Shown in pieces: positions 19,846 through 55,703 of a stretch of 56,533 nucleotides of DNA. The notes under the pieces were generated by a model that had not been told where the DNA came from, did no database searches, and saw only the letters and a program-made list of their open reading frames with translations. The number at the start of each line of letters is the position of its first letter. The first letter of the stretch is position 1. A program made the translations under genes and the position numbers. The stretch is from a virus: IMG/VR virus record IMGVR_UViG_3300043811_000163, positions 1 through 56,533 of that record; one strand, given 5' to 3'.

Positions 19846-19851
19846 TACTTT
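19846..19851 (+). promoter_or_regulatory. Late leaderless-type promoter element (TACTTT)
   Basis: CCTACTTT then CGCGGC then ATG: 6 nt between the element and the start codon, with no Shine-Dalgarno site. Transcription from the expected +1 would begin at the A of ATG. Confidence 0.6.
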
Positions 19852-19857
19852 CGCGGC

Positions 19858-22101
19858 ATGGCGGAAACTGTCGCTGACGCACCTCTCTCGGCCAAAGAGA
19901 CCGAGGACATGCCCGAGGCCCATTTCGCGGATCCGGAAGGAAAACGCTTCCCTCTATACGATCCGAAGACCAAGGCGCTCAGCGCGGAGCACGTCAACGC
20001 AGCGGGTTCCTACGCGGAAAAAATGCACAATTCTGGTGAGATCTCCGATGCGAAATACAAGGAGATCATCGCCAAGGTCAACAAGGCGAAAAAGACGCTG
20101 AAGATCGGCGATTTCGCGGACGACAAGAAAGACTACGACCGCACGCAAGCCGCCAATCCCGTCGAGGACGAGGCCGTTCAGAAATGGACGGCGGCCTCGA
20201 AAGACATCCACCGCGCCGACAATCCTCCGAGCTGGGTCGATGATGAAGCCACGTGGGAGAAGGCCAAGGAGGCGGTCGGCAAGGACTGGGACAAGTACGA
20301 CGATCCGTACGCGGTTGTCGTCTCGGTCTACAAGAACATGGGCGGATCGATCGGTGGCGGAGGCAAATCCGACCATGCCGATGCGGGTGAGCATTTTGGC
20401 GACACGGGGCTCGACCAACCCGGTTGGGAGCATGTCCGCCGCGTCGATTTGGCCTCGGGTTCAGTCGGCGAGTCCCGGACGACTCCGCAAGGCGGCATCA
20501 TCGCGCGCGCGAACCTCACTCGGACAGGGGTCTTCGACTACCGCCAGCCGGACGGCACGATCCGCCGAGAACTGAGACACCCCGACGAGGTCTTCGACAA
20601 GAAGAGCCTCGATTCCTTGGCTCATGCGCCGCTCACGATCGATCACCCCGACAAGGTCACGCCGCACAACTACAAGCGCGTCACGGTCGGCCATGTCGCG
20701 GGAACCCCGCATCGGGCAGGCAAATTCGTGCAGCAAGACGTGCTCGTGCAGGACGCGGATGCGATCGATGCGGCCAAGAAGGGCAAGCTGCAGGAGCTCT
20801 CGTGCGGCTACGAGTGCGCCATTGATCCCACGCCGGGCGACTACAACGGCGAGAAGTACGATGCGATCCAACGTCGCATTCGGTATAACCATGTAGCCGC
20901 GGGTCCGGCAGGCTGGGGAAGAGCCGGCCCCGAAGTGCGCATGCACCTCGACAGTGGTGCGGCCATCAGCTTGGCGCCCGATGCGGCTGCGTCGCCATCG
21001 GCCATGGCGCGCGAGGATGCCTCGCCTGGCAGTACGCACTCGGCGGCCGCGAATGCTCGAAGCGCAGAAGTCAAAGCCTTCGAAGATCATCTGCAGCCCA
21101 AATCGAAGACGGAACACAAGAAGGCGGCCGATGCCCATATGCAGGCTGCAGAAGCCCACGATTACGCGGCGATTCACGGCGATCCGTCGATGAAAGCCGA
21201 TCACGAAAAGGCCGCTGCCGATCATCGACAAAAGTCCGCAGATCACATTGCAGATTGCAATAAGCTCGACGAGGGTCACGCCGATCCCCGACCCGATCCA
21301 GGGTATGGGACTACGGCCGATAGTCGAGCGCCCTACGTTCGCGCTATGCCCGTCGAAACCGACGAAGAGAAGCGCCGCAAGGCCGAAGAGGAAGCGCGTG
21401 CAGAGAGGGTGCGGATCGACTCCGAACTCGCTCAGCTGCGCAGTGACAACGAACGACTCCGCGGCGAGAACACCGCGATGAAGTCGTCTAGCACGAGCGC
21501 CACGCTCGCCGCACAGCAGCAGATCGAAGCGCAGCGCATGGACGCCGCGTTCGACGAGATGTTCGCCGCGGTCGATGCAGGCACGCGCTACGTGAAGGAC
21601 TTCAACCGGTACCGCGCCGATGGCTCTCGCAAGAGTGTCTCGGACATCCGGCGCGAAGTCGTTGCGGCGCTCAAGCCGTCGATCCGGATCGACGCCAAGG
21701 AGACCGACGCGTTCATCGCGGGCGTCTTCTCCACGATCGTGCAGGAGAGGGAAGCAGCGGACCGAGGACGCGCCGCGATGGCGTTCGCGTCTTCGCCGCT
21801 CATCACGCCGGCCATGTCCCACGCCGACGCGGGTCGAAGAATGGGCATGAAGAAGCCCGATCGCGCCGCGGACCCGGACGACGAACCGGACGACGACGAG
21901 CCCGACGCCGAGACCAAGAAGGCGCAGGACAAGATGTTCCAGAAAATGAAGGACGCGTACAAGACCCGCGACAAGGGCGGGATGTCGCGCTTCTCGGCTC
22001 GGGATCGTCGCAAGGGAGACGGCCGCGCTCCCAATCCGACTCCTGCCTTCAACGGTGGGAATCAGGGCGACTTCAACGGCGGCTTCGGCGGAGGAATGTG
22101 A
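19858..22101 (+). CDS. Prohead protease (DUF2213-like) fused to scaffold-type C-terminus
   Basis: A 747-residue head-maturation protein. Residues 18-85 and 95-163 are two small helical domains often seen before phage proteases (the second with NPPSWVDDEATWEKAKEAV). Residues 205-365 are a DUF2213-like protease domain; candidate active-site residues are His263 (DHP), His279 (VGHV) and Ser315 (ELSCGY). Residues 400-470 are Ala/His-rich helices resembling those in the portal tail. Residues 498-747 are acidic coiled coil and low-complexity sequence like a scaffolding protein. An internal ATG at 21346 preceded by a late-type element could make the scaffold alone. Order protease, cement, major capsid is standard for this phage type. 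Confidence 0.8.
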   Translation: MAETVADAPLSAKETEDMPEAHFADPEGKRFPLYDPKTKALSAEHVNAAGSYAEKMHNSGEISDAKYKEIIAKVNKAKKTLKIGDFADDKKDYDRTQAANPVEDEAVQKWTAASKDIHRADNPPSWVDDEATWEKAKEAVGKDWDKYDDPYAVVVSVYKNMGGSIGGGGKSDHADAGEHFGDTGLDQPGWEHVRRVDLASGSVGESRTTPQGGIIARANLTRTGVFDYRQPDGTIRRELRHPDEVFDKKSLDSLAHAPLTIDHPDKVTPHNYKRVTVGHVAGTPHRAGKFVQQDVLVQDADAIDAAKKGKLQELSCGYECAIDPTPGDYNGEKYDAIQRRIRYNHVAAGPAGWGRAGPEVRMHLDSGAAISLAPDAAASPSAMAREDASPGSTHSAAANARSAEVKAFEDHLQPKSKTEHKKAADAHMQAAEAHDYAAIHGDPSMKADHEKAAADHRQKSADHIADCNKLDEGHADPRPDPGYGTTADSRAPYVRAMPVETDEEKRRKAEEEARAERVRIDSELAQLRSDNERLRGENTAMKSSSTSATLAAQQQIEAQRMDAAFDEMFAAVDAGTRYVKDFNRYRADGSRKSVSDIRREVVAALKPSIRIDAKETDAFIAGVFSTIVQEREAADRGRAAMAFASSPLITPAMSHADAGRRMGMKKPDRAADPDDEPDDDEPDAETKKAQDKMFQKMKDAYKTRDKGGMSRFSARDRRKGDGRAPNPTPAFNGGNQGDFNGGFGGGM
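21334..21339 (+). promoter_or_regulatory. Late element inside the protease gene (TACGTT)
   Basis: CCCTACGTT, 6 nt, then an in-frame ATG at 21346 (Met497 of the long protein). Same geometry as the other leaderless-type starts. Confidence 0.5.
21346..22101 (+). CDS. Probable nested scaffolding protein (in frame within the protease gene)
   Basis: A predicted 251-residue product sharing the C-terminus of the long protein, as lambda Nu3 does within gene C. It begins PVETDEEKRRKAEEEARAE, a charged coiled coil, has a helical middle, and ends in a Gly/Asn-rich tail. No separate scaffold gene is found between protease and capsid, which favours this reading. Inference from the internal late-type start. 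Confidence 0.5.
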   Translation: MPVETDEEKRRKAEEEARAERVRIDSELAQLRSDNERLRGENTAMKSSSTSATLAAQQQIEAQRMDAAFDEMFAAVDAGTRYVKDFNRYRADGSRKSVSDIRREVVAALKPSIRIDAKETDAFIAGVFSTIVQEREAADRGRAAMAFASSPLITPAMSHADAGRRMGMKKPDRAADPDDEPDDDEPDAETKKAQDKMFQKMKDAYKTRDKGGMSRFSARDRRKGDGRAPNPTPAFNGGNQGDFNGGFGGGM

Positions 22102-22109
22102 GCTAGGCC

Positions 22110-22736
22110 ATGCCCCAGACCAACGTCAACCTCACCCCGAACCCGGCGCAACCGGGCCAGCCGCTCTCGAACGATCGCACGAGCTACCTCGTTCGCTGCG
22201 TTCCTGCCGGAGTCGTCGTCCCGTTCGGCGTGCTCTGCGAGGTCTATGCGGCCTCCAACGGTCAGGCCCTGTGCCGTCCCGTGCAGGACGCGACCACGGG
22301 ATCCTCGTTTCTCCCGCTTCTCGGCGGCATCTCGATGCTCGACGCGTTCGCGGTGGAAATGGGATACACCACGTACTCGGTTCCGCCGAGCACGACGGGA
22401 TCGTCGTCTGCGGGCTACCCGATCGGCTTCTCGGTTCCGCTCGTGTACCGCGGCGGAATCTGGGGAGCCTGGGACGGCAATACTGGCACAGCGCTCCCGC
22501 TCACGGGCGGCATCCAGGTCTGGCACTCCAGTGACGGGTCGCACTCGCAGGGCGTGTTCACCACGCTCTCCGCGCAGACCACGCTGCACCAGGAGATCGA
22601 CGGACCCTTGCCGTACATCACGGTGTGGGATCCCTTCCTGAAGAGCGGCGCGTACACGGATTCCTTCGGGAACGTCGTGGACATTGTCGCTCTGCAAATC
22701 AACCTGCCGGGGCTTCTGACCCCAGGAGTCGTCTGA
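22110..22736 (+). CDS. Capsid cement/decoration protein (probable)
   Basis: A 208-residue beta-rich protein lying between protease and major capsid genes, where phages with DUF2184-type capsids place their structural cement protein. Sequence alone (GGISMLDAFAVEMGYTTYS, VPLVYRGGIWGAWDG) shows strands but no catalytic motif. The call rests mainly on position. It overlaps the capsid start by one base (TGATG). Confidence 0.6.
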   Translation: MPQTNVNLTPNPAQPGQPLSNDRTSYLVRCVPAGVVVPFGVLCEVYAASNGQALCRPVQDATTGSSFLPLLGGISMLDAFAVEMGYTTYSVPPSTTGSSSAGYPIGFSVPLVYRGGIWGAWDGNTGTALPLTGGIQVWHSSDGSHSQGVFTTLSAQTTLHQEIDGPLPYITVWDPFLKSGAYTDSFGNVVDIVALQINLPGLLTPGVV

Positions 22737-30106: not shown

Positions 30107-30985
30107 ATGAAAAGCTACGTTTGCCTCATGCGAAACGCGCTTCTGTCCGCCACGATCGCCCTGAACTTGGTCGGATGCCGCGGTTGCCATCCCGCTGCTT
30201 CCGTTCGGTCGGGACCGATCGGCGCGCAATCCACGCTGAGTGCATATTCGGCGGGTGGCGGCGCCCAGGCGATTGTTCTGCAAAATGCCACTGTGACTGC
30301 GGCCGGATCGGTCGTCGTCACGAACATGCCGATCGGCGCGACCAAGCTCACGGTCAATGTCTCGGGCACTGCGACCGGGTCAATGACTTTCACGATCACC
30401 GAGGTCGATTCGGGAGATCGCGCGACCGCGCTGGGATCTCCCGTCAGCACGTCGGCGATTACGACCACGGGCGCCACGAGCGCGTCATTGACCCTGGCGT
30501 CGTCCGGAACGGTTCTCGTCAGCTGGACCGCGACGAGCTCTCCGAGCTTCACCGGGGTGTGGGCTAGTCTCACCTCGACGGGACTTGCCACGACCGGGGG
30601 CGGTTCAGGCAGCGCGTCGACCGTCTCGATCTCGAGCCCGGTTGCGGCGGCGGGAGCTGTCCCGACGGTCGCGTGGGCACCGGTCGAGGTCAGTCAGGCT
30701 CCGCAGTCGAACTGCCCGGACCAAGGCGCGTTCGTAGGTGACGCTGGTGCGACCGGTTCCGGGTCCGTTCTCGTCGATGCCTCGATCACGACGACGGGTG
30801 TGGCGCGTCGCATTTGGGTCGGCACGGCCGGTACGGTTTGTTTGACCCACCTGAACGACACGAGCGCCAGTACGTGCACGTGTTACCTGAATGTTGCGGC
30901 TGGCACGTATCTCGACGGCGTGTTCACCGCGATCTGCGGAGCCGATGCGGGAACCACGGCAGGGTCCTTCGTTCTCGAGCGATAG
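30107..30985 (+). CDS. Lipoprotein-like beta-rich protein
   Basis: A 292-residue protein. MRNALLSATIALNLVGC fits a lipoprotein signal peptide with lipobox LVGC, so Cys24 would be lipidated if exported. The rest is Ser/Thr/Gly-rich beta repeats. AAAGGA precedes the ATG. A lipidated protein in the middle of virion genes is unusual; it may be surface-displayed in the infected host or a reused fibre. Confidence 0.55.
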   Translation: MKSYVCLMRNALLSATIALNLVGCRGCHPAASVRSGPIGAQSTLSAYSAGGGAQAIVLQNATVTAAGSVVVTNMPIGATKLTVNVSGTATGSMTFTITEVDSGDRATALGSPVSTSAITTTGATSASLTLASSGTVLVSWTATSSPSFTGVWASLTSTGLATTGGGSGSASTVSISSPVAAAGAVPTVAWAPVEVSQAPQSNCPDQGAFVGDAGATGSGSVLVDASITTTGVARRIWVGTAGTVCLTHLNDTSASTCTCYLNVAAGTYLDGVFTAICGADAGTTAGSFVLER

Positions 30986-30992
30986 AAGAAGC

Positions 30993-30998
30993 TACCTT
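30993..30998 (+). promoter_or_regulatory. Late leaderless-type promoter element (TACCTT)
   Basis: GCTACCTT, 6 nt, ATG at 31005; no Shine-Dalgarno site. Confidence 0.6.
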
Positions 30999-31004
30999 CA
31001 CGCC

Positions 31005-31376
31005 ATGCCCGTGGAAGCCGCCGTGAACGAACCGCCTAGCGCAGAGCCGGCTCCGGAGCACGTAGAGCCAATCGCAGAGACAGCGCCGCCCGAAGAGGCC
31101 AAGCCGTGCGAGGATCCGAATCATGGGCCGCCGGCCTTGCGCGGATCCGAACAGCGAGGGATCCAGATGCACACGTGCCCGAAGTGCGGACTGGAAACCG
31201 TGACGCGAGTCGGTTTGGCCGATGGCGTCAAGGTCACGCGTTCGCCGCAGCTCAATGAGCGCGGTCGTCCGACAGGCTCCACGATCGTGCGCGTCGATTC
31301 GGTGCCCACCGGCCAGGTGATTTCGTCTCCGCCCGCGCGTCGCCGAGGCCAGCCCACGGTTCGATTGTCCTCGTGA
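31005..31376 (+). CDS. Hypothetical protein with a zinc knuckle
   Basis: A 123-residue protein: a Pro/Glu-rich first 45 residues, then HTCPKCGLETVTRVG and a basic tail. No family recognised. First gene after a late-type element; the start at 31005 is set by that element. Confidence 0.55.
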   Translation: MPVEAAVNEPPSAEPAPEHVEPIAETAPPEEAKPCEDPNHGPPALRGSEQRGIQMHTCPKCGLETVTRVGLADGVKVTRSPQLNERGRPTGSTIVRVDSVPTGQVISSPPARRRGQPTVRLSS

Positions 31377-31452: not shown

Positions 31453-31463
31453 ATGGCAGGCCC

Positions 31464-31469
31464 TACGTT
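31464..31469 (+). promoter_or_regulatory. Late leaderless-type promoter element (TACGTT)
   Basis: CCCTACGTT, 7 nt, ATG at 31477. It selects the second ATG of the frame as the true start of the lipoprotein. Confidence 0.55.
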
Positions 31470-31476
31470 CACGGGC

Positions 31477-32004
31477 ATGAAGCGAATCGCTCTGGCCCTC
31501 GCCATTCTCGCGCTGCCCATTCTCGCGCTCGTCGCGAGTTCTGCCTGCTACCCGCAGTCCAGTCCTTCGCCGAGCAAGCTTGGTGGAAACGCGACGTGGG
31601 GTCCGCAAGGCCCGACAGGTCTGAGCGGCGATGCCGCCTCGTCGATCCCGCTGACCGGGACCTTCGGCCAGCAGAAGACGCTGACCGTCGAGATCTACAA
31701 CACGGACGGCGCGGCCTGGACCGGAACCATCAACTTTCAGGGGTCGAATGACGGTACGAACTGGAATGCCGTCCCGTGCGTGAACCTCGGCGGTACAGTC
31801 GGAGCGATCGGCGCGGTAGCATCTTCGACGACCGCCAATGGGCTCTGGCAGTGCAATGTCTCCGGACTCGGGTACTTCCAAGCGCAAGGCGTTACGATCT
31901 CGACTTCAGCGAACGTGACCTTCAACCTCGCCGATTCGAACTTCCCGATCAGTTTCACTTTGGTCGATGCTGCAACTGGCGCGGTCATTCGCACGAGCTA
32001 CTGA
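31477..32004 (+). CDS. Lipoprotein-like protein
   Basis: A 175-residue protein starting MKRIALALAILALPILALVA and a lipobox ending in Cys24 (ASSAC). The mature part has Gly/Pro-rich sequence, then a beta domain with TGTINFQGSNDGTNWNAVP, common in phage and bacterial surface proteins. I chose the ATG at 31477 over 31453 because it gives a proper signal peptide and fits the late element. Confidence 0.6.
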   Translation: MKRIALALAILALPILALVASSACYPQSSPSPSKLGGNATWGPQGPTGLSGDAASSIPLTGTFGQQKTLTVEIYNTDGAAWTGTINFQGSNDGTNWNAVPCVNLGGTVGAIGAVASSTTANGLWQCNVSGLGYFQAQGVTISTSANVTFNLADSNFPISFTLVDAATGAVIRTSY

Positions 32005-32018
32005 GCGTTCGGAGCGGC

Positions 32019-32024
32019 TAGCTT
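32019..32024 (+). promoter_or_regulatory. Late leaderless-type promoter element (TAGCTT)
   Basis: GCTAGCTT, 6 nt, ATG at 32031; no Shine-Dalgarno site. Confidence 0.6.
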
Positions 32025-32030
32025 CGTCGC

Positions 32031-32402
32031 ATGGATGTGGCGGCCTTCAAGCTGCAATTCCCGGAATTCAAAAGCGTTCCGCAGGATTACGTTCAGGCTC
32101 TTCTCATCCGATCCACGATCCGAATGGGTGGGCTCACGACCGCCACGAGCTCAAGTCCGGATGCGCGAATTTGGGGTTCGTACGGCGCAGCTGGGCAGCC
32201 GCTAACGCTCGCCGACATCGCTCAAGCCTGCTGGACCGCGCACTTGCTAATCTGCTCTCCCTTTGGCTCGGAAACGCGGTTGAATCCAGAGACCACCGAA
32301 TCGACTTACAAGGCGCAATGGACCGAGCTGGCTGAAGCAGTGTACGGCGGCTTCATTGTGTCTGGCAACGGTGGCTGCGGCTGGCCCGGTAGACCGTTCT
32401 GA
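32031..32402 (+). CDS. Head-tail connector (DUF4054-like)
   Basis: A 123-residue protein. It begins FKLQFPEFKSVPQDYVQAL and has a later AHLLICSPFG, the pattern of the DUF4054/gp6-like connectors that form a ring below the portal. Length fits the family. It is followed, with a one-base overlap, by the tail-completion gene. Confidence 0.7.
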   Translation: MDVAAFKLQFPEFKSVPQDYVQALLIRSTIRMGGLTTATSSSPDARIWGSYGAAGQPLTLADIAQACWTAHLLICSPFGSETRLNPETTESTYKAQWTELAEAVYGGFIVSGNGGCGWPGRPF

Positions 32403-33583: not shown

Positions 33584-33620
33584 GCCCCCGGACGGTGACA
33601 CGTCGCGGGGGCGCTATTTT
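33584..33620 (+). terminator. Hairpin terminator beside an endonuclease gene (copy 1)
   Basis: GCCCCCG (33584-33590) pairs with CGGGGGC (33606-33612), followed by GCTATTTT. The T-rich tail is also the -10-like element of the next gene. Confidence 0.6.
33615..33620 (+). promoter_or_regulatory. Late-type promoter element (TATTTT)
   Basis: GCTATTTT, then CATAGC and a 5-nt leader before the ATG at 33632. Less good match than others. Confidence 0.4.
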
Positions 33621-33631
33621 CATAGCACGAA

Positions 33632-34276
33632 ATGACTCAGCCTGCCTATTCTGTCCAGCCGTCTCCACGGATCCCAAAGCAGACCCTGCTTCAGCTCATT
33701 GCGACGCTCTCGGGAGTCCAGACGTTATGGAGAAGCGACCGAGCCCCGGCAATCCCCGGCGAATCGCCCGGCCTCGAGCACGCACGCATCTGGCTCAAGA
33801 TCACGACGTACGCGAACAACGGCACGGACGAGCAGCGGCTCCAGTACGATGCCGCGGCCGACACCAACGACCTCTTGAATGTGGGACAGAGGCAGTTCAC
33901 GCTCTCGATCCGGGCGGAGTGCTTCAACCCCATTTCCGAGATCGAAGCGTACGATCTCTGCGAGCGCATTCGGTTTCGACTTCGAACGGCCACGGCAAGA
34001 TCCATTTTCTCGCCCGCAAATCTCGCGCTACGCGACGTCCAACCGATTGCGGCCTTCGAGCAGAAGGTCGACGTCGGGGGCACTTCGCGTATGATTCCTT
34101 GTGCCACGATGGATGTCCGATGGAACTGGGTGGCGACCGGTGACCCCAATCCGCAAGACTCGATGGAGGGAAACTGGATTGAAGGCATCGACGGACTCAC
34201 CGCGCCATTCACCAACAGCAACGCGCCTGGCGTCATCGGCGACAGCATCATTCCTGGCACGCTGAACGAGCCCTGA
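33632..34276 (+). CDS. Tail terminator / neck protein (probable)
   Basis: A 214-residue protein. LLQLIATLSGVQTLWR at the start and a mixed alpha/beta core fit phage neck-terminator proteins that cap the tail tube. Position between the tail-completion gene and the sheath gene supports this. The C-terminal 50 residues are low complexity. Confidence 0.55.
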   Translation: MTQPAYSVQPSPRIPKQTLLQLIATLSGVQTLWRSDRAPAIPGESPGLEHARIWLKITTYANNGTDEQRLQYDAAADTNDLLNVGQRQFTLSIRAECFNPISEIEAYDLCERIRFRLRTATARSIFSPANLALRDVQPIAAFEQKVDVGGTSRMIPCATMDVRWNWVATGDPNPQDSMEGNWIEGIDGLTAPFTNSNAPGVIGDSIIPGTLNEP

Positions 34277-36217: not shown

Positions 36218-36248
36218 TGTAGCACGGCGTCACGTCGACCGCTCGCCC

Positions 36249-36254
36249 TACTTT
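36249..36254 (+). promoter_or_regulatory. Late leaderless-type promoter element (TACTTT)
   Basis: CCTACTTT, 7 nt, ATG at 36262; no Shine-Dalgarno site. Drives sheath and tube genes. Confidence 0.6.
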
Positions 36255-36261
36255 CGCAGCG

Positions 36262-38118
36262 ATGGGCGTTACCGATTCGGTCAGCGTTTCGATCAGCGTC
36301 AGCTCATCGCCAGCGGTTGCCATTGAGAGTCTCCAGACTCCCCTCGTTTGTGCGTTTCACAATAACTACCCGCAGCGATTCAAGTTTTATTCGGGTCAGG
36401 GCGGCGCCGGCTTGGCGCAGATGGTCACCGATGGTTTTTTGGTCACGAGCCCAGCGTACAAGGCGGCTTCTGCGATCTGCGATCAGTCGCCGTGTCCCGC
36501 AGAATTCGCCATTGGGCGACGAGCTCTGCCCCCCCAGCAAACGCTCACGCTCACGCTCACGGACGGCACCCCAAACGATTCGTACAACCTGACGATTGTC
36601 GGAACCGACGGAGTGAGCCACGCGATCTCGTACACGATCGCAGCCAGCCCTGGTTCGGCGCTCGCGTCCTCGGCGACCACGAACGTCACGAACGGTTCGG
36701 CCGCGGTCACGTTCTCGGCCGCGCAGACCTTGCTCAAGGGCGGTGCTCTGGTCTTCGGGACCGGAGCTCAGCCGGGAGTGTTCTACTTCCTGAGCGCGAA
36801 CGTCACGGCCTCGACGTCGGGCACGCTCACTGGCAACTACCTCGGGACCTCGGACACGACGGCGCCAACCACGTACACGGCGCCGCTCACGGGCACGTTC
36901 CACACGACCGCGGGATCGAATCTCGTGCCGTCGACGAGCTCGCAAGTGGGTGTCGTAGCAGTCGGCGACGCGATCATGTTCGCGACCCAGCCGAACGTGT
37001 TCTACACGGTCACCGCGGTCTCGGCGACCGTCGTCACGCTCTCGTCGAGCTACACGGGAGCAGGATCGACGACGGACAACGCGGTCGATGTTTCGCCGGT
37101 CACGTACGCGGCAACCCAGCTCGAGACCTTGATCGCCGCGCTCACGAACGTCGGAACCGTATCCGTCACGGGCGCGGTCATCACGATTCAGCGACCCACG
37201 CCGGACGGAAAGCTCGTCGACATCCAAAGCTGGCTCACCAACGGGTTTGCGAACATCCAGCTTGCGGACACCACGGCCGATCCGGGGATCGCGACGGATC
37301 TCGCGGCAATCTACGCCGCCGATCGGCTCGACTGGTACGCGCTCGTCCTCGACTCGAACTCGGCGGCCGAGATCAAAGCGGCGGCCGCCTGGATCGAAGC
37401 GACCGGACAGGGCGGCAAGGTCTTTTTCGCGAACAACTCGGACTACGCGAACACGCTCAGCACCAGCACGACCGATCTCTTCTCGAGCCTGCAGACGTCG
37501 GGCTACAAGAAGACGCACTGCCAGCAGAACAACCAGCAGCTTCTCTGCTACGCGGGTGCTGCAGCGGCGGCCTGGGCTCTGGTGCAATCCCCGGGCTCGT
37601 ATGCGATTGCGCAGGGCGCGAATCTCATCGGCGTGCCCATCGACACCGACATCACGCTGCCGGAAGCCCTCGCGCTCGTGCTCAACGACTACACGGCGAG
37701 CAACCCGACCCTGGTCGGCAAGAGCGGCAACTTCTTCCGGCTCACGGCCAACGTGAGAGCGTCGTTCTGGGGAGTGACTCCGTCGGGCCAGTACATGGAC
37801 CTGACCATTTTCATCGACTGGCTGCAGCTCAACATGCAGGCGGACGTCTTTGCCGTGCTTGCGAGCCTGCCCAAGGTTCCCTTCACGGACATCGGGATTG
37901 GACTCATCGGCGACGCGATCGACACGCGGCTGCACATCGCCTCAGCCCCTCCGTACAACGCGATCGACCCGACCCAGCCCATCGTGGTCAATGTACCCAC
38001 GGCCGCCTCGGTCCCGACCGCGAACAAGGTCGCGCGCAATGTCCCGAACATCACGTGGTCGGCGACCTACACGAGCGCGATCGAGAGCGTGACCATCCAG
38101 GGAACGCTGGTGGAGTAA
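36262..38118 (+). CDS. Tail sheath protein (DUF3383-like)
   Basis: A 618-residue contractile tail sheath. The N-terminus (SVSISVSSSPAVAIESLQ), the central LIAALTNVGTVSVTGAVI and DRLDWYALVLDSNSA, and the C-terminal FIDWLQLNMQADVFAVLA are typical of DUF3383 sheath proteins. A Thr/Ser/Val-rich Ig-like insertion occupies roughly residues 130-285, probably an exposed surface domain, and makes the protein longer than usual. The tube gene follows after 4 bp. Confidence 0.85.
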   Translation: MGVTDSVSVSISVSSSPAVAIESLQTPLVCAFHNNYPQRFKFYSGQGGAGLAQMVTDGFLVTSPAYKAASAICDQSPCPAEFAIGRRALPPQQTLTLTLTDGTPNDSYNLTIVGTDGVSHAISYTIAASPGSALASSATTNVTNGSAAVTFSAAQTLLKGGALVFGTGAQPGVFYFLSANVTASTSGTLTGNYLGTSDTTAPTTYTAPLTGTFHTTAGSNLVPSTSSQVGVVAVGDAIMFATQPNVFYTVTAVSATVVTLSSSYTGAGSTTDNAVDVSPVTYAATQLETLIAALTNVGTVSVTGAVITIQRPTPDGKLVDIQSWLTNGFANIQLADTTADPGIATDLAAIYAADRLDWYALVLDSNSAAEIKAAAAWIEATGQGGKVFFANNSDYANTLSTSTTDLFSSLQTSGYKKTHCQQNNQQLLCYAGAAAAAWALVQSPGSYAIAQGANLIGVPIDTDITLPEALALVLNDYTASNPTLVGKSGNFFRLTANVRASFWGVTPSGQYMDLTIFIDWLQLNMQADVFAVLASLPKVPFTDIGIGLIGDAIDTRLHIASAPPYNAIDPTQPIVVNVPTAASVPTANKVARNVPNITWSATYTSAIESVTIQGTLVE

Positions 38119-39180: not shown

Positions 39181-39390
39181 ATGCGCTGGTCGATTCTCGC
39201 GTTCGCGGACCGCCCGATCGCACCTCTCTCGCCCGTTCCGCCATCGCTCGAGGTGATCGAGCACGAGCCTCTCGACATTCTCACCAAACGCGAGAAGCTC
39301 GGAGCCGAAGCCAGCCGGCTGGGCGTCCGACCCGTGTTCAACCGCGATCCGTTCAGTCGCGACTACGGCAAGCTGCTAGGAGTGCGGTAA
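39181..39390 (+). CDS. Hypothetical protein
   Basis: A 69-residue protein with a Pro-rich first third and a short helix. Similar small proteins occur beside tail genes, but I recognise no family. The start is fixed by the late element. Confidence 0.55.
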   Translation: MRWSILAFADRPIAPLSPVPPSLEVIEHEPLDILTKREKLGAEASRLGVRPVFNRDPFSRDYGKLLGVR

Positions 39391-39867: not shown

Positions 39868-39898
39868 CTGTCTGTCACTAAACGTAGTGGAAATTCCC

Positions 39899-39904
39899 TA
39901 CCTT
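39899..39904 (+). promoter_or_regulatory. Late-type promoter element with a 30-nt leader (TACCTT)
   Basis: CCTACCTTTGCGGCACG: 6 nt after the element comes ACG rather than ATG; the gene's ATG is at 39941 with a GGAG site. This copy shows that the motif is not simply a translation signal. Confidence 0.55.
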
Positions 39905-39940
39905 TGCGGCACGATTAGCGCGAGGGCCGGAGCACCACCC

Positions 39941-40384
39941 ATGAAAAAGAATGCCGAGATTTCGATCGACGGTCAGCGTTACCGCCTGACGCAGCCGGGC
40001 GCCGAGACCATTGCCGAGCTCGGCGAGAAAGTGATCGAGGCAGCGGCCATGACGATGCAGGGCAAGACGGGGCTCGCGGTCGTCTTGCGCGAGGTCCGCA
40101 CCGCGCTCGTCGGAGCCTGCCAGGTGCTCGTCATCGACAGCGAAGACGAGAAGAAAAAGGCTCGCTACGTCGAATTGGCGCTCGTCTTTTCCGATCACTT
40201 CGCAGGGGATCAAGCCAAGAGTCTCGGAAAGTGGTTCGTGTGGGCCGCGAAGGAGTCCGGGTTGACCGCTTTTTTAGGTGGAATGCTGAGCGGGACAGTC
40301 CCGTCGCTGAAGGACAAACTACCTTCCGTATTCCGGATGGATGCTGCTGGTTCCTCGACCGACTCGTCTATTCCGAGCGCATGA
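39941..40384 (+). CDS. Tail assembly chaperone, short form
   Basis: A 147-residue protein directly upstream of the tape measure, where tailed phages place the chaperone that coats it. Mixed alpha/beta (DGQRYRLTQPGAETIAEL, LREVRTALVGACQVL). A slippery heptamer T TTT TTA lies at 40270-40276 in the correct frame, so part of the ribosomes should shift to make a longer product. GAGGGCCGGAGC precedes the ATG. Confidence 0.7.
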   Translation: MKKNAEISIDGQRYRLTQPGAETIAELGEKVIEAAAMTMQGKTGLAVVLREVRTALVGACQVLVIDSEDEKKKARYVELALVFSDHFAGDQAKSLGKWFVWAAKESGLTAFLGGMLSGTVPSLKDKLPSVFRMDAAGSSTDSSIPSA

Positions 40385-40539: not shown

Positions 40540-42210
40540 GTGGGCGCGTTGCGGGAAATCCTGGCCGTCTTCGACATTCAAGTCCCTACAGAGGCTCTTG
40601 AGCACGGCGAAAAGAAGATCGAGGGCTTCAAGGACAAGCTGCTCGCGATCACCGGAGTCGTCGCGGAAGCCTTCGCGATCGAGAAGGTTCGCGAGTTCGT
40701 CCAAGAACAAGTCGAAGTCACGACCGCGCTCGAACGCGAATCGCAAGTCTTGGGGATCACGACCGAGGCGCTCGAGGTCTTCCGGTACGCGGCGGGCGAC
40801 GTTGGTGTCGCCACGGAATCGATGGACACCGCGATCCGGTTTTTGAACCGCAACATCGGCGAAGCCGTGGCCAAGGGCGGAGAGACTGCGGCCATTTTTC
40901 AGAAGCTACACATCGTGCTGAAGAACGCCGACGGCACGACGCGAGATACGGGCGACGTCATGGCCGATCTCGCCGACAAGGTCGCGCAGATCCCGAACGC
41001 GTCGGAAAAGACGCGGATCGCGATGGAGCTGCTCGGTCGACAAGGCGCCCAGCTCATCCCGGTCCTGAACAAGGGGCACGATGGATTTCAGGAAGCCAAG
41101 CGAGACCTCGACGAGCTCGGGGGCCCGACCTCGAAAGCGTACATTGCGGCCGCGAAAGGGATCGAGGAGTCGCAGCATCGGCTTACGGTCGGTTGGGACG
41201 CGATCAAGCGATCGATCGCGATCGAACTCTTCCCGGTCGTCAAGGGCCTGACCGATCTCTTCGTCAAGCTCGTCAAAGAGGGCATCGAGCTCACGCGGCA
41301 CACGTACATTTTGCAAGAGGCATTGGTCGCGCTCGGAGTCGTATCGACCTACAAGGCCGGCCTCGGCGTCGTCAGTCTATTGCAGAAGTTCGGTCTCTTG
41401 AAGCCGACCGTGATGGAGAACGTGACGGCTTTGCTTGGCGTCGCGCGCGCGGTGATCCCTTGGCTCGTCTTGGCTCTGATTGCCGAAGACTTTTTCGTCT
41501 TCATGAAGGGCGGCAAATCGATCATCGGCGACATTCTCGATCAGCTCTTCGGAATCGGATCCGCGGCTGCCGGCGTCATTCTGATCAAGGCAGCTTTCGC
41601 GGATCTTGTGGATGGATTGAAAGGTTTGGCAGAAGTTCTCGTGGCGGCCATGATCACGCCGCTCATGCACGCCTGGGAGATCATCAAGGGTATCGCCACG
41701 GTCTTCTACGATATTGCGACGCTCAATACGAGCCACATCGGGCAAGATCTCAAAAACATGAGCCGGGAGCTTGCCGAGACCACCTTGGCAGCGAAGAAGT
41801 CCTTCCAAGAAGGCTGGGGCATGATGACCGGGGAAGGCGGATCGCATCTCGCCAAGGGTATGGACGACGCGGCGCAGGCTATCCTCGATGCGAGAAAAGC
41901 CGCGCAGATGGACCAGCAATATGGTCCCATGTACGGGGCGAATGGAGTGTCCGGCGCGGTCGGAGTCGGAGCGATCAAGTTCAGCGGCGGACGAGGCGCG
42001 GGCCATGTGCGCGAGCCCACATCGTTCGGCTTCGGCCGTGGTGGCGAAGCGCAGAGACCGGTCGTGCATCAGCATATCACCAACAACGTGCAGATTACCC
42101 CACCGAAAGATGCCGACATCAACGAAGTCGGGGATGCACTCGGGCAAGGCGTGGCGAAACCGGTCGAGCGCGCGGCCGCGAACGCGTACACGGCAGGCAA
42201 CAAGAGCTAG
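40540..42210 (+). CDS. Tail tape measure protein
   Basis: A 556-residue helical protein. Residues 20-200 are coiled coil with RESQVLGITTEALEVFRYAA, as in many tape measures; residues 270-400 hold hydrophobic helices (ALLGVARAVIPWLVLALIA) that may enter the membrane during DNA ejection; the C-terminus has GGEAQRPVVHQHITNNVQI. It sets tail length; 556 residues suggests a tail of about 80 nm by the usual 1.5 angstrom per residue rule. GTG start. Confidence 0.8.
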   Translation: MGALREILAVFDIQVPTEALEHGEKKIEGFKDKLLAITGVVAEAFAIEKVREFVQEQVEVTTALERESQVLGITTEALEVFRYAAGDVGVATESMDTAIRFLNRNIGEAVAKGGETAAIFQKLHIVLKNADGTTRDTGDVMADLADKVAQIPNASEKTRIAMELLGRQGAQLIPVLNKGHDGFQEAKRDLDELGGPTSKAYIAAAKGIEESQHRLTVGWDAIKRSIAIELFPVVKGLTDLFVKLVKEGIELTRHTYILQEALVALGVVSTYKAGLGVVSLLQKFGLLKPTVMENVTALLGVARAVIPWLVLALIAEDFFVFMKGGKSIIGDILDQLFGIGSAAAGVILIKAAFADLVDGLKGLAEVLVAAMITPLMHAWEIIKGIATVFYDIATLNTSHIGQDLKNMSRELAETTLAAKKSFQEGWGMMTGEGGSHLAKGMDDAAQAILDARKAAQMDQQYGPMYGANGVSGAVGVGAIKFSGGRGAGHVREPTSFGFGRGGEAQRPVVHQHITNNVQITPPKDADINEVGDALGQGVAKPVERAAANAYTAGNKS

Positions 42211-42213
42211 TTT
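42208..42213 (+). promoter_or_regulatory. Late leaderless-type promoter element (TAGTTT) over the tape measure stop codon
   Basis: GCTAGTTT, 6 nt, GTG at 42220. TAG is the stop of the tape measure gene. Confidence 0.55.
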
Positions 42214-42219
42214 TGCGCT

Positions 42220-43362
42220 GTGCCGCTCACGCAGCCCGCATCGACCCAGCCGACGGTTTACCAAGAAGCCTTCGTCCAGTACGTGGACGCGACAGGCGCG
42301 ACGCAGACCATCGTGTTCGATGCCGTTCTGACCGAGGATTGGCCGCAAGGTACGACAGTCACGGAGCACCCCGTCGAGCAGGGCGCCAACGTGGCCGATC
42401 ATGTCCGGGTCAAGCTCATCACGTGCAAGCTGAAGATCCGCGTCACGAACGAACCGCTCGATTCGAATCAGTTCACCGATCCGATTGGTGGCGCGGGCAA
42501 CTTCAGTCCTCTTGCGCTTCAGGTCCCTTCCCCGCAGCAGCAGCAGTTCGACGGCGTCGTCACGGTTCCCACATGGAACAATGGGCTCGATCAAGCCGTC
42601 CAGATCGGCACGATCGCGGGCGCTTCGAGCGATATTGCCTCTGCAGCGGCCGACGCCATCGCGAACGCGACTCCACTCGGCAATCTCTTCGGTCTCGCGC
42701 TCAAGCCGTACATCGTGGTCACGCAGACCGGAAACGAGCTCATCGCGTACCCGGACCCGGCTCTCGATGTGCCTCCCGCCATTGCAGGCTCACCGATCCG
42801 AAGCCTCGGCGATGTCGCAGGCAATGCTGTCTTCAACGCAATCGATTCTCTCGTGCCGGCCGGAGTCGAGGTCGACGAAGTCGTGCAGACCACGGCGGGA
42901 TTGCCACCGACCGCTCCGATTCCACCGATCACGGCGCAAACGATCCAATTCGATCCGACCGCGGACTACGCGCAGGCCATGATTGCGCTTCTTGGTCTTC
43001 TGAAAAATCAAGCCATGACCTTCACGGTCTACGGATCGAAACAGACGCAGCCATCGATGGTCATCGAGGATCTCACGCTGCACAGGGGAGCTCCCGAAGA
43101 AACAGGAACTGGCGCAGACATCGAGATCGGATTCAAGCAGGTTCGCATTGTCAGTACGCAAACCGTCAATGCACCACTACCCACCGTGCCGAGAGCTCAG
43201 ACACCAGTGAACAACGGTGCTCAGGATCCGGTTCCATTGACCGACCCGACCATTCAGTCGTTTCTGCATAAGACCACCACGGGCGCGATCAACTTCTTCT
43301 CGAGGGGCACGACCCCTACTCTGGGCGGACTGCCGTCGAGCGCGCAAGGGTTTACGCCATGA
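42220..43362 (+). CDS. Distal tail/baseplate protein, Dit-like
   Basis: A 380-residue protein. An early VTEHPVEQGANVADHVRVK followed by an alpha/beta core, and a late TFTVYGSKQTQPSMVIEDL then EIGFKQVRIV, fit the Dit-like tail proteins that link tube to baseplate. A long Ala/Pro-rich insert lies between. GTG start fixed by the late element. Confidence 0.7.
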   Translation: MPLTQPASTQPTVYQEAFVQYVDATGATQTIVFDAVLTEDWPQGTTVTEHPVEQGANVADHVRVKLITCKLKIRVTNEPLDSNQFTDPIGGAGNFSPLALQVPSPQQQQFDGVVTVPTWNNGLDQAVQIGTIAGASSDIASAAADAIANATPLGNLFGLALKPYIVVTQTGNELIAYPDPALDVPPAIAGSPIRSLGDVAGNAVFNAIDSLVPAGVEVDEVVQTTAGLPPTAPIPPITAQTIQFDPTADYAQAMIALLGLLKNQAMTFTVYGSKQTQPSMVIEDLTLHRGAPEETGTGADIEIGFKQVRIVSTQTVNAPLPTVPRAQTPVNNGAQDPVPLTDPTIQSFLHKTTTGAINFFSRGTTPTLGGLPSSAQGFTP

Positions 43363-45015: not shown

Positions 45016-45498
45016 ATGCCTCGAGTGTACATCATCAGGCCAGTTACAGAGAGATTTTTGGACCACATCGACTACAATGGGCCGATTGTAAGGCCGGATC
45101 TGGGACCGTGCCATTTGTGGATTGGTGCGCTCGACCGTCACGGTTACGGAGAGATCTCGTTGGGCCCTACGTCGCGACCAAGAGTGGGCGCTCATCGGGT
45201 GGCATTTTTGGCGCATTATGGCCGATGGCCGGAGCCAAATGCGCTCCATCGATGCGACAATCCTCCGTGCGTGCGCTGGGAACATCTCTACGAAGGAACA
45301 CATGCCGACAATAGCGAAGACATGGTAAGAAAGGGTAGAAGTGTAGCGAAAGTGACCTCGGAACAGGTCAAAGAGATACGCAAACGATACGCCTCAGGAA
45401 AGGTGACGCAGGTCCAGCTTGCCGAAGAATTCGGTCTCAGACAGACACAAATCAGCAACATAGTTCGCTATGTTCAGTGGCGATGGAACGGCAACTAA
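45016..45498 (+). CDS. HNH homing endonuclease
   Basis: A 160-residue HNH nuclease: YNGPIVRPDLGPCHLWIGA, AHRVAFLAHYGRWPEPNAL, HRCDNPPCVRWEHLYEGT, DNSEDMVRKGR. The C-terminus is a helix-turn-helix (TQVQLAEEFGLRQTQISNI). GGGAGGCGAG precedes the ATG at 45016. It lies in the same direction as the late genes, and its last 16 bp overlap the start of the spike gene. Confidence 0.85.
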   Translation: MPRVYIIRPVTERFLDHIDYNGPIVRPDLGPCHLWIGALDRHGYGEISLGPTSRPRVGAHRVAFLAHYGRWPEPNALHRCDNPPCVRWEHLYEGTHADNSEDMVRKGRSVAKVTSEQVKEIRKRYASGKVTQVQLAEEFGLRQTQISNIVRYVQWRWNGN

Positions 45499-46829: not shown

Positions 46830-46831
46830 CC

Positions 46832-46837
46832 TACCTT
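46832..46837 (+). promoter_or_regulatory. Late-type promoter element (TACCTT) with leader
   Basis: CCTACCTT directly after the terminator T-run; expected +1 near 46844, giving a leader of about 19 nt to the ATG at 46863. Confidence 0.5.
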
Positions 46838-46862
46838 ATCGGTGGAGTCTTGCCAACGAACC

Positions 46863-47708
46863 ATGACGACTTTGTGTCGGACAAATTCTGGCGACATCGC
46901 CATTCCTCTTTCCATACAGACGGATCCGGGAACATATACTTCATGGAAAATACAAGATGAGCTTGGACTTTGGCTTGGGGAATGGTTTATTGACGTAACA
47001 GTTGGATTTCCTTGGGTAAATAGGGTTATCGGTTTAAAGAATCCGTCTCTCTCCCAAATCCGCGCTCTTCTTCGCCAGGCCATCCTCGAGACGCCGCTGG
47101 TCGTGTCACTCGTCGATCTGAATCTGTCGCTCAATCCGAAAACGCGCGCACTCGCGTACGCGTTCAGGGCGTTTCTGCAGAACGGGGCTCAAGTCACGGG
47201 CGGCACGGGCGTTCCCTTCATCGTCAACGGCGGGGCTCCAGCGCAGAACTTCGGCAATGTCCCGGTCGGGCCCGCGGGCCCCGCGCCGTGCATGAATGCG
47301 TCCGCGCCGTGCGGATGCACAGAGGGTGAACAGGGACCGCCTGGACCCGCTGGGCCGGCAGGAACCAATGGCGGTTTGACGCCTTCGTACATTGCGGGCC
47401 CGACCACGTTCAGCGCGGTTGCGGGCTTCTTCTATGTGATCGATCTGACCGGGCCCGTGGTGATGAATGTGCAGACGCTGCCCGTGGCGTCATCGGCAAG
47501 CAGCGGCACAGGATTCATTCTGGTCGGGGCAACGCCATCGTCCGGCGCGAGCCTAACTGTCAACGCTCCGGCGGGAGTCGCATTCGCTCCGCCTCCACCC
47601 AACAACGACACAACTCTATCGAGTCTTGTGTTCAACACGGCAGAGGACGCAGGCGCGAGTCTGAATATCGATAACTACAACGTACCTGGTGTGTACGCCA
47701 CGAGTTAG
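46863..47708 (+). CDS. Baseplate wedge (gp25/W-like) fused to a collagen-like fibre segment
   Basis: A 281-residue protein. Residues 1-115 are gp25-like (GEWFIDVTVGFPWVNRVIG, IRALLRQAILETPLVVSL), the lysozyme-like wedge that starts sheath assembly. Residues 125-170 contain Gly-Pro-Ala and GEQGPPGPAGPAG collagen-like repeats, and the rest is a beta domain. Wedge and fibre parts are usually separate genes. The first 180 bp are clearly AT-richer than the surroundings. Confidence 0.65.
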   Translation: MTTLCRTNSGDIAIPLSIQTDPGTYTSWKIQDELGLWLGEWFIDVTVGFPWVNRVIGLKNPSLSQIRALLRQAILETPLVVSLVDLNLSLNPKTRALAYAFRAFLQNGAQVTGGTGVPFIVNGGAPAQNFGNVPVGPAGPAPCMNASAPCGCTEGEQGPPGPAGPAGTNGGLTPSYIAGPTTFSAVAGFFYVIDLTGPVVMNVQTLPVASSASSGTGFILVGATPSSGASLTVNAPAGVAFAPPPPNNDTTLSSLVFNTAEDAGASLNIDNYNVPGVYATS

Positions 47709-52835: not shown

Positions 52836-52875
52836 AAAAGGAAGCGCACCACTTACTAAACCGCAAGCGGTAGGC

Positions 52876-52881
52876 TAGCTT
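52876..52881 (+). promoter_or_regulatory. Late leaderless-type promoter element (TAGCTT)
   Basis: GCTAGCTT, 7 nt, ATG at 52889; a short CCGCAAGCGG hairpin lies just upstream. Confidence 0.6.
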
Positions 52882-52888
52882 CGAACCG

Positions 52889-54109
52889 ATGGGCGTCGGG
52901 ATCCCGAAATTCGGAACGTGGGCAGTCGCCGAAGTTGACTTTCCAGCGGGCGGAAATCCGTGGAATGGGCAACCAGTTATCGTCGCGCCATCGGGCGACA
53001 TTTTCACGCCAGACACATTCCCTCCGGCCGAATACTTCAATTATCTCTTCAACTTAGCGTTCGTTCAAGATGTGGTACTTCTGTCGGTCGGCGGTCTCGG
53101 GCCCGCGCGAAATTGGCACACCCCGTTCACGGACAGCGCAGGAACGTCTGGCGATCTCGTATGGAATCAGGCCGTTCGCCGATGGATGATGGTTTGGTGG
53201 AACGGCAGCAACTCCATGAACGCGGATTACTACTCCGGCGGAGACCAAGTGCGGGTGGCATCTGGTGCAACCGCGCAGGCCGTAGCAGCGATTCCGGGGC
53301 CTTCCGCTTGCGGGAGTGATGGGGTTCTTTATACGATGAGTGGAGGCACGCTATTCGGTCTCAGCGGGACCACGTGGTCGACGGTGCGAGCGCCCTTCAT
53401 TACGGCCTCGGCATGCGCGGTGGCGACCATCGGCACAGCGTGGGCTCTCGTCGTAAATGACACGAGCGGAGCCGGTTGGCAATATTGGAGCGGCGCTTCT
53501 CTTGCAGCAGGTACCAAGATTCTCGACCAGGCGGGCACCTCTCCGACCAATGGTTGGGCGATGGCGTCCAACGGCGCTACCGCGACTTTGGTCTGTTTCG
53601 TCGAGAGAGCGGCCAGCGGCGTTGTTTATACAGCATCCACTTCGGCGATTGTCAGTACAACAAACCTGACAACGTTCCTTGGAAGCACGGACGTTCCGCT
53701 CGACATCACGTGGGATAGCACGAACAGCCGCTGGCTGATGGCTGTCAGCGTTGCCGGTGGCACAACGACGGCGTTCTGGTATTCGTCGGACGGTGTGCAC
53801 TGGACCAAGGCGAGCCAGCTCACCTCGATGCGGTTTGGATTCACAGCGATCGGTGGCGTCAACCTGCGAGCGATTGGCGCTCTCATCGCAGCGACCGCTT
53901 TCGACACCGTGGCGACTTTTGCACTCTGTTACTCTACGGACGGCGGAGTCACTTGGAACTCCAGCGATACGCTCTTCGCGGGCAGCAGTTCCACCTCGGC
54001 CCAGCTACGAGCCAGCGATGTTGGCTTCGCGATCGTCTATCCGAACGAAACCACGAACCAGCTTCAGTTTTCCGACAGGTTCGGCGTTCCTACCGCGCAG
54101 CTCAGTTGA
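52889..54109 (+). CDS. Tail fibre/spike protein with propeller-like repeats
   Basis: A 406-residue protein. The first 55 residues (PKFGTWAVAEVDFPAGG, FTPDTFPPAEYFNYLF) resemble fibre attachment domains. The rest contains repeated W-and-G strands such as ITWDSTNSRWLMAVSV, FWYSSDGVHWTKA and YSTDGGVTWNSS, the last two being Asp-box-like turns of beta-propellers. Probable receptor binding. Confidence 0.65.
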   Translation: MGVGIPKFGTWAVAEVDFPAGGNPWNGQPVIVAPSGDIFTPDTFPPAEYFNYLFNLAFVQDVVLLSVGGLGPARNWHTPFTDSAGTSGDLVWNQAVRRWMMVWWNGSNSMNADYYSGGDQVRVASGATAQAVAAIPGPSACGSDGVLYTMSGGTLFGLSGTTWSTVRAPFITASACAVATIGTAWALVVNDTSGAGWQYWSGASLAAGTKILDQAGTSPTNGWAMASNGATATLVCFVERAASGVVYTASTSAIVSTTNLTTFLGSTDVPLDITWDSTNSRWLMAVSVAGGTTTAFWYSSDGVHWTKASQLTSMRFGFTAIGGVNLRAIGALIAATAFDTVATFALCYSTDGGVTWNSSDTLFAGSSSTSAQLRASDVGFAIVYPNETTNQLQFSDRFGVPTAQLS

Positions 54110-54620: not shown

Positions 54621-54702
54621 TGCTCTCACCATCTACAATGTAAGGCTGAGCCCATATCCTCGAAACTGACCGCGCGTGTAGTACGCAAGTGTGCGATTCC
54701 CC

Positions 54703-54708
54703 TAGCTT
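54703..54708 (+). promoter_or_regulatory. Late leaderless-type promoter element (TAGCTT)
   Basis: CCTAGCTT, 7 nt, ATG at 54716; no Shine-Dalgarno site. It lies in the 95-bp gap divergent from the protease gene. Confidence 0.6.
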
Positions 54709-54715
54709 CTGCGGC

Positions 54716-55204
54716 ATGACCGATTCGGAGAATCTGCGAGCGGCCACGGCGATCTATGAGGGGAACGGGAAGGTGCTCGAAGCCTACACGCCGCAGACGC
54801 CGTTTGAAGCGGCGGTGATGTACGTGCTTCGGGAGACCAAAGAGGAGTTCAAGAAGCTTCACCACGCGATCGACGACGCGAAGCTCGAACTGTACACGGA
54901 GATCGTCGATTTGAAGGGTCGCGTCGATGTGCTCGGCGCGGCGGCCATGGATGCGAGAAACGACGCCATCGAGATCGGCAAGAAGTACGATGCGCTGGTC
55001 GAGCGGGATCGATTGAACGGAAAAGCGCAAGCGCGAAGCGAAGCCCCCTCGTCGCCCGAATTGCCGAAGCACCGCGCGACCGATCGGAGCGATGCGCGAT
55101 TCGAATCAGACTCACCCCCCGCCGAAGATTGCGCAGTGCGACCTACGCGGGCCCCCCTGATGGGAGACTTTGCACCGACGCCCGACGACGAAGAAGAGCC
55201 GTGA
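54716..55204 (+). CDS. Hypothetical coiled-coil protein
   Basis: A 162-residue protein: helical/coiled coil from residues 30-100 (ETKEEFKKLHHAIDDAKLEL), then a disordered acidic tail. Sits before likely lysis genes. The late element fixes the start at 54716. Confidence 0.55.
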   Translation: MTDSENLRAATAIYEGNGKVLEAYTPQTPFEAAVMYVLRETKEEFKKLHHAIDDAKLELYTEIVDLKGRVDVLGAAAMDARNDAIEIGKKYDALVERDRLNGKAQARSEAPSSPELPKHRATDRSDARFESDSPPAEDCAVRPTRAPLMGDFAPTPDDEEEP

Positions 55205-55210
55205 ACACCG

Positions 55211-55690
55211 ATGCTGACCCTGCTTCTCGATGCAGCGCCTTCCGAACCACCGAGGTGGATATTTGAGCTTGGTGGCACGATTCTGTTTTCCGTCATTGGC
55301 TGGCTCATTTCGCGCGGAGTGAAGGCCAACGACGACAAATCGAAGCAGCTCGCCGAGCAGAACGCGGACCAGGGCCGGCGCATCTCGCAGCTCGAGAGCG
55401 ATCGGGCCTCGATGACGATCAAGCTCGATTGGCTGAACACGGAGCTTCAGCGACACCAGAGAGGCTGCGAGGATTCGGTCGACATGCGCCTCTTCGAAGA
55501 AAGAACGGGCAACCTCCGAGCCGATCTCGATCAGTGTCTTTTCCAGCTCGGCAGGAAACCGTCGACCGGGACCGTGCGCGCCATGATCAGCGGAAGCGAT
55601 CAGAGAGTCGAGCCGGATTCGAATCCGCCGGTTCCGCCAGCTACGCCGCAGAGGCGGCCGCCGTTCCCATCGCGACCCGGGAACCGCTAA
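55211..55690 (+). CDS. Membrane-anchored coiled-coil protein (possible lysis protein)
   Basis: A 159-residue protein: one hydrophobic helix at residues 16-34 (WIFELGGTILFSVIGWLIS), then coiled coil to about 120 and a Pro-rich tail. One N-terminal anchor plus coiled coil is the layout of an inner-membrane spanin, but it could also be another membrane protein. Confidence 0.5.
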   Translation: MLTLLLDAAPSEPPRWIFELGGTILFSVIGWLISRGVKANDDKSKQLAEQNADQGRRISQLESDRASMTIKLDWLNTELQRHQRGCEDSVDMRLFEERTGNLRADLDQCLFQLGRKPSTGTVRAMISGSDQRVEPDSNPPVPPATPQRRPPFPSRPGNR

Positions 55691-55697
55691 AGTTCCC

Positions 55698-55703
55698 TAC
55701 CTT
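55698..55703 (+). promoter_or_regulatory. Late leaderless-type promoter element (TACCTT)
   Basis: CCTACCTT, 6 nt, ATG at 55710; no Shine-Dalgarno site. Confidence 0.6.

Follow-up and report, generated by a model that had tools for sequence, protein, structure and literature searches.

The head and tail genes encoded in IMG/VR virus record IMGVR_UViG_3300043811_000163 raise the question of how a gene is expressed when its start codon lies six or seven nucleotides behind a short promoter-like element and is preceded by no Shine-Dalgarno site. The window, i.e., the whole stretch of DNA analyzed here (56,533 nt), corresponds to bases 1–56533 of this 113,473-base record. An original prediction, made without database searches, had regarded the element as the mark of a family of late promoters giving leaderless messages. 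In its strict form the element, called the box below, reads SCTANBTT, and its copies are named by the position of the TA (e.g., 19846). As judged from its sequence, spacing and distribution, the box is very likely the −10 element of about 15–17 phage late promoters giving leaderless mRNAs.

Distribution of the Box

All 15 elements reported originally were found at their positions, and in 11 of them a gap of 6 or 7 nt indeed separated the element from the start codon that followed, which was ATG in each case except for GTG at 42220. A twelfth site of the leaderless type, 30116, had been overlooked. The search for strict SCTANBTT revealed 17 copies on the + strand and 2 on the − strand of the window, and 19 and 4, respectively, in the whole 113-kb record. 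The region between 19.8 and 57 kb accounted for 17 copies on + and 2 on −, and the other 76 kb for 2 per strand. Under a first-order Markov model, 2.9 copies were expected on the + strand of this region (maximum of 8 in 300 simulations), and the box followed by 6–7 nt and RTG was found 12 times vs 0.14 expected (maximum of 2 in simulations).

A box was present 5–11 nt upstream of 12 of the 36 rightward genes of the structural module and of only 1 of the 109 other genes (Fisher P = 1.2e-7), the single exception being the portal gene, which is the only head gene oriented leftward. The element had been described as a phage-wide code limited to the late half. Its confinement to one region of the genome held true, but the code proved narrower, being restricted to the structural module, where 12 of 36 genes and the portal gene carry it.

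In an unbiased approach, genes were called by codon usage alone, and an unsupervised search for motifs covered the 45 nt preceding each of the 36 late rightward genes. It gave gCTAncTTC as the top motif, present in about 15 of the 36 genes and starting mostly at −13 to −15, and the remaining genes gave purine-rich, Shine-Dalgarno-like motifs. A de novo search including the start codons was uninformative, the start codon dominating the result. Searching upstream regions, which the original prediction had proposed as its own check, thus showed an enrichment far above chance and a scarcity outside structural genes.

Anatomy of the Probable Promoters and Translation Signals

The 15 core sites were aligned on their TA. 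Positions C-13, T-12, A-11, T-8 and T-7 were invariant, partly by construction, as the sites had been chosen as box matches. The third position was C or G in 14 of the 15 sites, the base preceding C-13 was C or G and the six bases after the box leaned to CGCGGC. The lack of a −35 element was borne out, the best six-column information content upstream of the box being equal to the null (P = 0.54 vs random windows). With the last T of the box at −7, a 6-nt gap would place +1 on the A of AUG and a 7-nt gap one base earlier.

Shine-Dalgarno sites were evaluated as the duplex energy with the anti-Shine-Dalgarno sequence in the −17 to −4 region, expressed as the median per gene class. The 12 box genes gave 0.25 kcal/mol, the other late genes −4.5, genes elsewhere −5.4 and random positions −2.2 kcal/mol. 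The box genes differed from the other late genes of the same operons (P = 1.2e-5), in line with the claim that they lack Shine-Dalgarno sites, and the claim that genes inside the same operons possess them was supported as well by the median of −4.5 vs −2.2 kcal/mol for random positions. Leaderless mRNAs are those with the start codon at the predicted +1 and no Shine-Dalgarno site, and by their 6–7 nt spacing and anti-Shine-Dalgarno energies the box genes are predicted to belong to this class. In agreement, signal peptides begin at the box-defined starts of 31477 and 55710. The preference for ATG among box genes (11 of 12) was not significant. Leaderless starts are not exclusive to the late class, since the early gene 485–694 (−) has TTGACA-17-TACAGT located 7 nt before its ATG and thus combines a start of the leaderless type with a complete −35.

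Individual Sites

On the + strand, the first leaderless-type site, CC-TACTTT with a 6-nt gap (19844–19858), precedes ATG 19858 of the head maturation protease and scaffold gene (19858–22101), which has a DUF2213/protease match. The second, CC-TACGTT with a 6-nt gap (21332–21348, site 21334), had been listed among the sites preceding rightward genes. Its ATG 21346 does not open a separate gene downstream but was found to be an in-frame internal start inside the protease gene, at protease codon 497. The predicted product of 251 amino acids begins MPVETDEEKRRKAEEEARAERVRIDSELAQLRSDNERLRGENT and is a putative coiled coil with a weak Phage_scaffold match from its residue 11 (11–86), and the internal box is encoded with the rare codons GTT and GCT. 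The protein starting at ATG 21346 looks like a coiled-coil scaffold with its own promoter. In phage lambda, the scaffold gene Nu3 is nested in gene C. The arrangement is alike here, with the difference that the scaffold would have a separate promoter.

A counterpart on the other strand, CC-TACGTT (19830–19837, −), lies 9 nt before the portal gene, which runs leftward from ATG 19820 (14475–19820) and was identified by a portal match. This box on the portal gene's own strand and the internal box located exactly where the scaffold domain begins were unforeseen facts that agree with the reading of the box as a promoter. The portal protein itself comprises 1781 amino acids and carries additional fused domains, among them a nudix-like stretch.

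Further + strand sites with a 6-nt gap were GC-TACGTT before ATG 30128 (30114–30130), GC-TACCTT before ATG 31005 (30991–31007), GC-TAGCTT before ATG 32031 (32017–32033), GC-TAGCTT before ATG 39181 (39167–39183), GC-TAGTTT before GTG 42220 (42206–42222) and CC-TACCTT before ATG 55710 (55696–55712). The 30128 product is lipoprotein-like; its start lies in frame inside an open reading frame beginning at 30107, where an alternative start with a Shine-Dalgarno site exists. The 31005 product (123 amino acids) has no assigned function, and the gene at 32031 encodes a virion structural protein (phrog_302). At sites 39169 and 42208 the TA of the box is part of the stop codon of the upstream gene: in the former, TAG terminates a sigma-28-like gene, and in the latter, located before a Dit-like tail protein gene, the tape measure gene. 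A 7-nt gap was found for CC-TACGTT before ATG 31477 (31462–31479), CC-TACTTT before ATG 36262 of the tail sheath gene (36247–36264), GC-TAGCTT before ATG 52889 (52874–52891) and CC-TAGCTT before ATG 54716 (54701–54718). Start 31477 was favored over 31453 because the signal peptide MKRIALALAIL begins there.

Four more copies had been thought to precede short leaders. GC-TATTTT (33613–33634, +), located after a GC hairpin and 11 nt before ATG 33632, leaves a leader of about 5 nt without a Shine-Dalgarno site. CC-TACCTT (39897–39943, +) is followed by a leader of about 30 nt with GGAG before ATG 39941. Another CC-TACCTT (46830–46865, +) follows a hairpin with a T-run and is separated by a short leader from a baseplate wedge gene starting with GTG 46842 or ATG 46863. 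Both 33615 and 46832 directly adjoin their hairpins. The fourth copy, at 38610, reads GT-TAGCTT and lacks the SC prefix; this weaker box is followed by the Shine-Dalgarno-like AGGGTGAT and a possible CTG start at 38635 of the sigma-28-like gene (38610–38637, +). A doubtful box, GC-TATGTT (site 45469; 45467–45485, +), lies 8 nt before ATG 45483, and the copy at 35389, belonging to a small open reading frame, has no explanation.

Candidate Factors Reading the Box

Family searches identified two phage sigma factor genes in the record. The first (record 85196–86113) encodes a factor with region 2 only, matching PF04542 with 26.4 bits (cut-off of 24) and giving no region 4 match. Its core-binding segment is recognizable, its gene is located in the replication block and has its own Shine-Dalgarno site. 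The C-terminal part shows a weak likeness to a primase C-terminus (E 0.1) and contains no region 4. The structure predicted without an alignment had a mean predicted local distance difference test (pLDDT) score of 36, which was too poor for a fold search.

The second gene, not recognized originally, lies inside the late cluster (38635–39171, +) and encodes a sigma-28 factor of the FliA/WhiG type with regions 2 and 4 (178 amino acids from the assumed CTG). It matched TIGR02479 with E 1e-41, the score of 143 bits being below the curated cut-off of 190 as the linking region 3 is shortened, and FliA structures with E 2e-29. FliA positions 81, 84 and 91 (Asp81, Arg84, Arg91) are conserved in the phage factor. 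In FliA, these residues read the extended −10 of sigma-28, and the invariant C upstream of TA would suit a contact by them. A general sigma-28 TAAA −35 was considered and rejected, since it was found only at 30116, 39899 and 52876 of 16 sites (19–22 nt upstream), one of them being made by a stop codon.

Given the lack of a conserved −35, the host core RNA polymerase with a phage sigma is the most likely reader of the box. Of the two sigmas, the one with region 2 only is the better match to the shape of these promoters, as the region 4 of the sigma-28-like factor is intact and yet no −35 is present.

Weighing the Explanations

The best explanation overall, to which we give a probability of about 0.6, is as follows. 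The box would be the −10 element driving the head and tail genes, the first genes of the mRNAs would be translated from leaderless starts without Shine-Dalgarno sites and the downstream genes of each operon via such sites. The late promoters would be transcribed by the host core RNA polymerase with a phage sigma, which is probably what recognizes the box. The region-2-only factor (record 85196–86113) is the candidate initiator, and the sigma-28-like factor (38635–39171), with a box copy before its own gene, is a candidate self-reinforcing second factor. A more elaborate scheme is only tentative: a two-sigma cascade with leaderless first late genes, in which the transcription switch would at the same time switch the mode of translation and the nested promoter would set the scaffold-to-protease ratio.

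Several observations weigh against the best explanation. For sigma-28 promoters (TAAA - spacer - GCCGATAA), the record contained no more than three matches, all of them poor, and the sigma-28-like factor retains a normal region 4 helix, predicting a −35. The early genes (1.8–10.2 kb) have CTTGAC-16-TATRTT promoters and Shine-Dalgarno sites, and their −10 elements share T-12, A-11, T-8 and T-7 with the box. The record site 100930 (TTGACC-16-TACGTT) joins TTGACC to GCTACGTT, and on these grounds the box might be acceptable to the host sigma. No box-bearing relative was found in searches with the capsid, the terminase and both sigmas.

Some of these points could be explained by late promoters that are truly leaderless and read by the host housekeeping sigma, the contact to a −35 being substituted by a co-activator or polymerase modifier of the phage, as has been reported in Thermus phages. 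Such a reading is possible because the early −10 elements share TANNTT with the box and because of site 100930; the gene 485–694, with its TTGACA-17-TACAGT adjoining ATG, points the same way, and the middle and late genes of phage P23-45 are read by a modified host polymerase (PMC10770324). However, neither the invariant C before TA nor the C/G at the third position was seen in early promoters, the late sites lack a conserved −35 and the phage encodes two sigmas. Moreover, the strict box before ATG showed no enrichment over the reversed control in the candidate-host genomes tested, among them those of Sorangium and Minicystis, which suggests a signal proper to the phage, provided that its host belongs to that group. 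A host sigma with a phage helper is regarded as the less likely reader.

The constant distance to start codons would also be expected of a translation or RNA-processing signal. Such a role is improbable, as the sequence is −10-like, copies 39899 and 46832 stand before leaders and after intergenic or hairpin-T-run sequence, the − strand copy serves a divergent gene and there is zero complementarity to the 16S rRNA tail. Chance or a codon-usage artefact, suggested by the shortness of the motif and by starts 30128, 31477 and 21346 having been chosen partly with the motif in view, is negligibly probable given 12 occurrences vs 0.14 expected, the strand bias of 17:2, the unsupervised recovery with starts from the coding score only and the module restriction (P = 1e-7).

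Comparison with Known Systems

Sevostyanova et al. 2007 reportedly found that late-class genes of phiYS40 are expressed from a single −10-like element without a −35. In this Thermus phage, most middle and late mRNAs have no leader (PMC3594737). As a positive control, the phiYS40 sequence showed TANNNT peaking 6 nt ahead of the starts, and in our own count 12 of its 58 genes had the motif at 6–7 nt. The two phages are alike in their late-class mRNAs, leaderless in phiYS40 and predicted to be so here, and in early genes with −10/−35 promoters. In contrast, TANNNT of phiYS40 has no fixed C-13 or T-8 (TANNTT shows no peak), some start-adjacent sites are accompanied by TTGAC and phiYS40 belongs to a thermophile and has a GC content of 32%, whereas the phage studied here encodes two sigmas and its box is restricted to structural genes.

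The phiEco32 sigma is of the extracytoplasmic function (ECF) type. According to the available part of the report on phiEco32 and phage 7-11, a phage sigma there uses one short box (tAATGTAtA) for the middle/late class, with a box before the sigma gene (PMC4331800). A phage sigma, a single short box and a box copy at the sigma gene are features in common, and the 38610 box in front of the sigma-28-like gene suggests self-activation as for those sigmas. The box itself is different, and leaderless starts are not reported for these phages in that part of the source.

Late promoters of T4 consist of a −10 element only; the T4 late box is TATAAATA and T4 late mRNAs have leaders. The T4 factor gp55 resembles sigma in domain 2 only (PMC2988020). 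The factor encoded at 85 kb is alike in being sigma-like in region 2 only, and a clamp-like (DnaN-like) gene is present at 6855–7625. No clear clamp motif was seen by eye in the region-2-only sigma, and no gp33 analogue was identified, no profile search having been aimed at gp33. Separately, the proteins encoded at 82280–83947 and 86255–87145 end in ELQVSLFG and MLQVSLM (record 83900–83947 and 87110–87145), resembling clamp-binding motifs.

In Deinococcus-Thermus, leaderless genes have as their −10 a TANNNT lying a few bases upstream of the start codon, with an optional −35, and in Deinococcus it adjoins the start codons of about 1/3 of genes (PMC12340547). These are genome-wide host housekeeping promoters, for which no C-13/T-8 requirement is reported, in contrast to the box. 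The authors of the AR9 study noted that leaderless transcripts are frequent in phages (PMC5312081).

Late promoters with a single box are thus known, and so are phage messages without leaders, the examples coming mostly from T4, phiEco32 and the Thermus phages. New in this phage are the box and its confinement to structural genes, together with the two sigma genes and the start of a nested scaffold. The probable occurrence of both features in a GC-rich phage with two sigmas means that a changed mode of translation initiation may accompany the timing of transcription. One box, 15–17 sites and two candidate readers make a clean set for testing. With the box, starts overlooked by gene callers can also be found (e.g., that of the nested scaffold), and genes of uncultivated phages can be assigned to temporal classes from sequence.

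The Phage Record and Its Gene Content

The first 127 bases of the record are identical to its last 127, which makes it very probable that the record is a complete genome assembled as a circle. Matches to a portal, protease, major capsid protein, tail sheath, tape measure and baseplate indicate a contractile-tailed phage (myophage). The half outside the window encodes a DnaB helicase, a lambda-type exonuclease, Rsr/Ro60, an Mpa-like ATPase and 33 tRNA genes. Rfam gave zero matches within the window.

No close relative was found in phage records or IMG/VR. Searches of both with the capsid, the terminase, both sigmas and the early-promoter pattern yielded none close enough to assess conservation of the box. 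A comparable box class was absent from distant terminase relatives (identity ≤45%) and from five viral contigs with sigma-28-like genes; one compared contig had a few CTACCGT-7-ATG sites, not exceeding the reversed control.

Identity to the Sorangium/Minicystis counterparts was 54% for Rsr and, over region 2, 56%/52% for the sigma-28-like factor, so among the genomes examined both point to Polyangia. The proteasome-type ATPase, nearer to actinobacteria, points elsewhere. The phage is GC-rich and its host is possibly a member of Myxococcota. The Rsr/Ro60 protein (record 102251–103894, E 3e-149) adjoins a cluster of 30 tRNA genes (101.1–108 kb); Ro-like genes are known in actinobacteriophages too. 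The homologue of the Mpa/ARC-type proteasome ATPase is encoded at record 97927–99429 (TIGR03689, E 8e-77).

The early promoters are embedded in a repeated AACYNGAGGTTATRTTA, which overlaps the −10 (7 matches vs 0.27 expected). Its copies at early promoters lie at window positions 1799, 3203, 5386, 6665 and 7999 on the − strand and 10194 on the + strand. The core is near the palindrome AACCTNAGGTT, and the repeat may thus serve an early repressor as its operator.

An adenylosuccinate-synthetase homologue is encoded at record 63771–65033 (−), with '2-aminooxy adenylosuccinate synthetase' as the best PHROG (E 7e-66); a PurZ-type enzyme and 2-aminoadenine DNA are possible. At both record ends (window 1–320; record 110.4–113.4 kb), GCGCGCAGTGTNTCGCG elements are repeated upstream of small leftward genes, and the first 280 bases of the record have an exact second copy at 110844.

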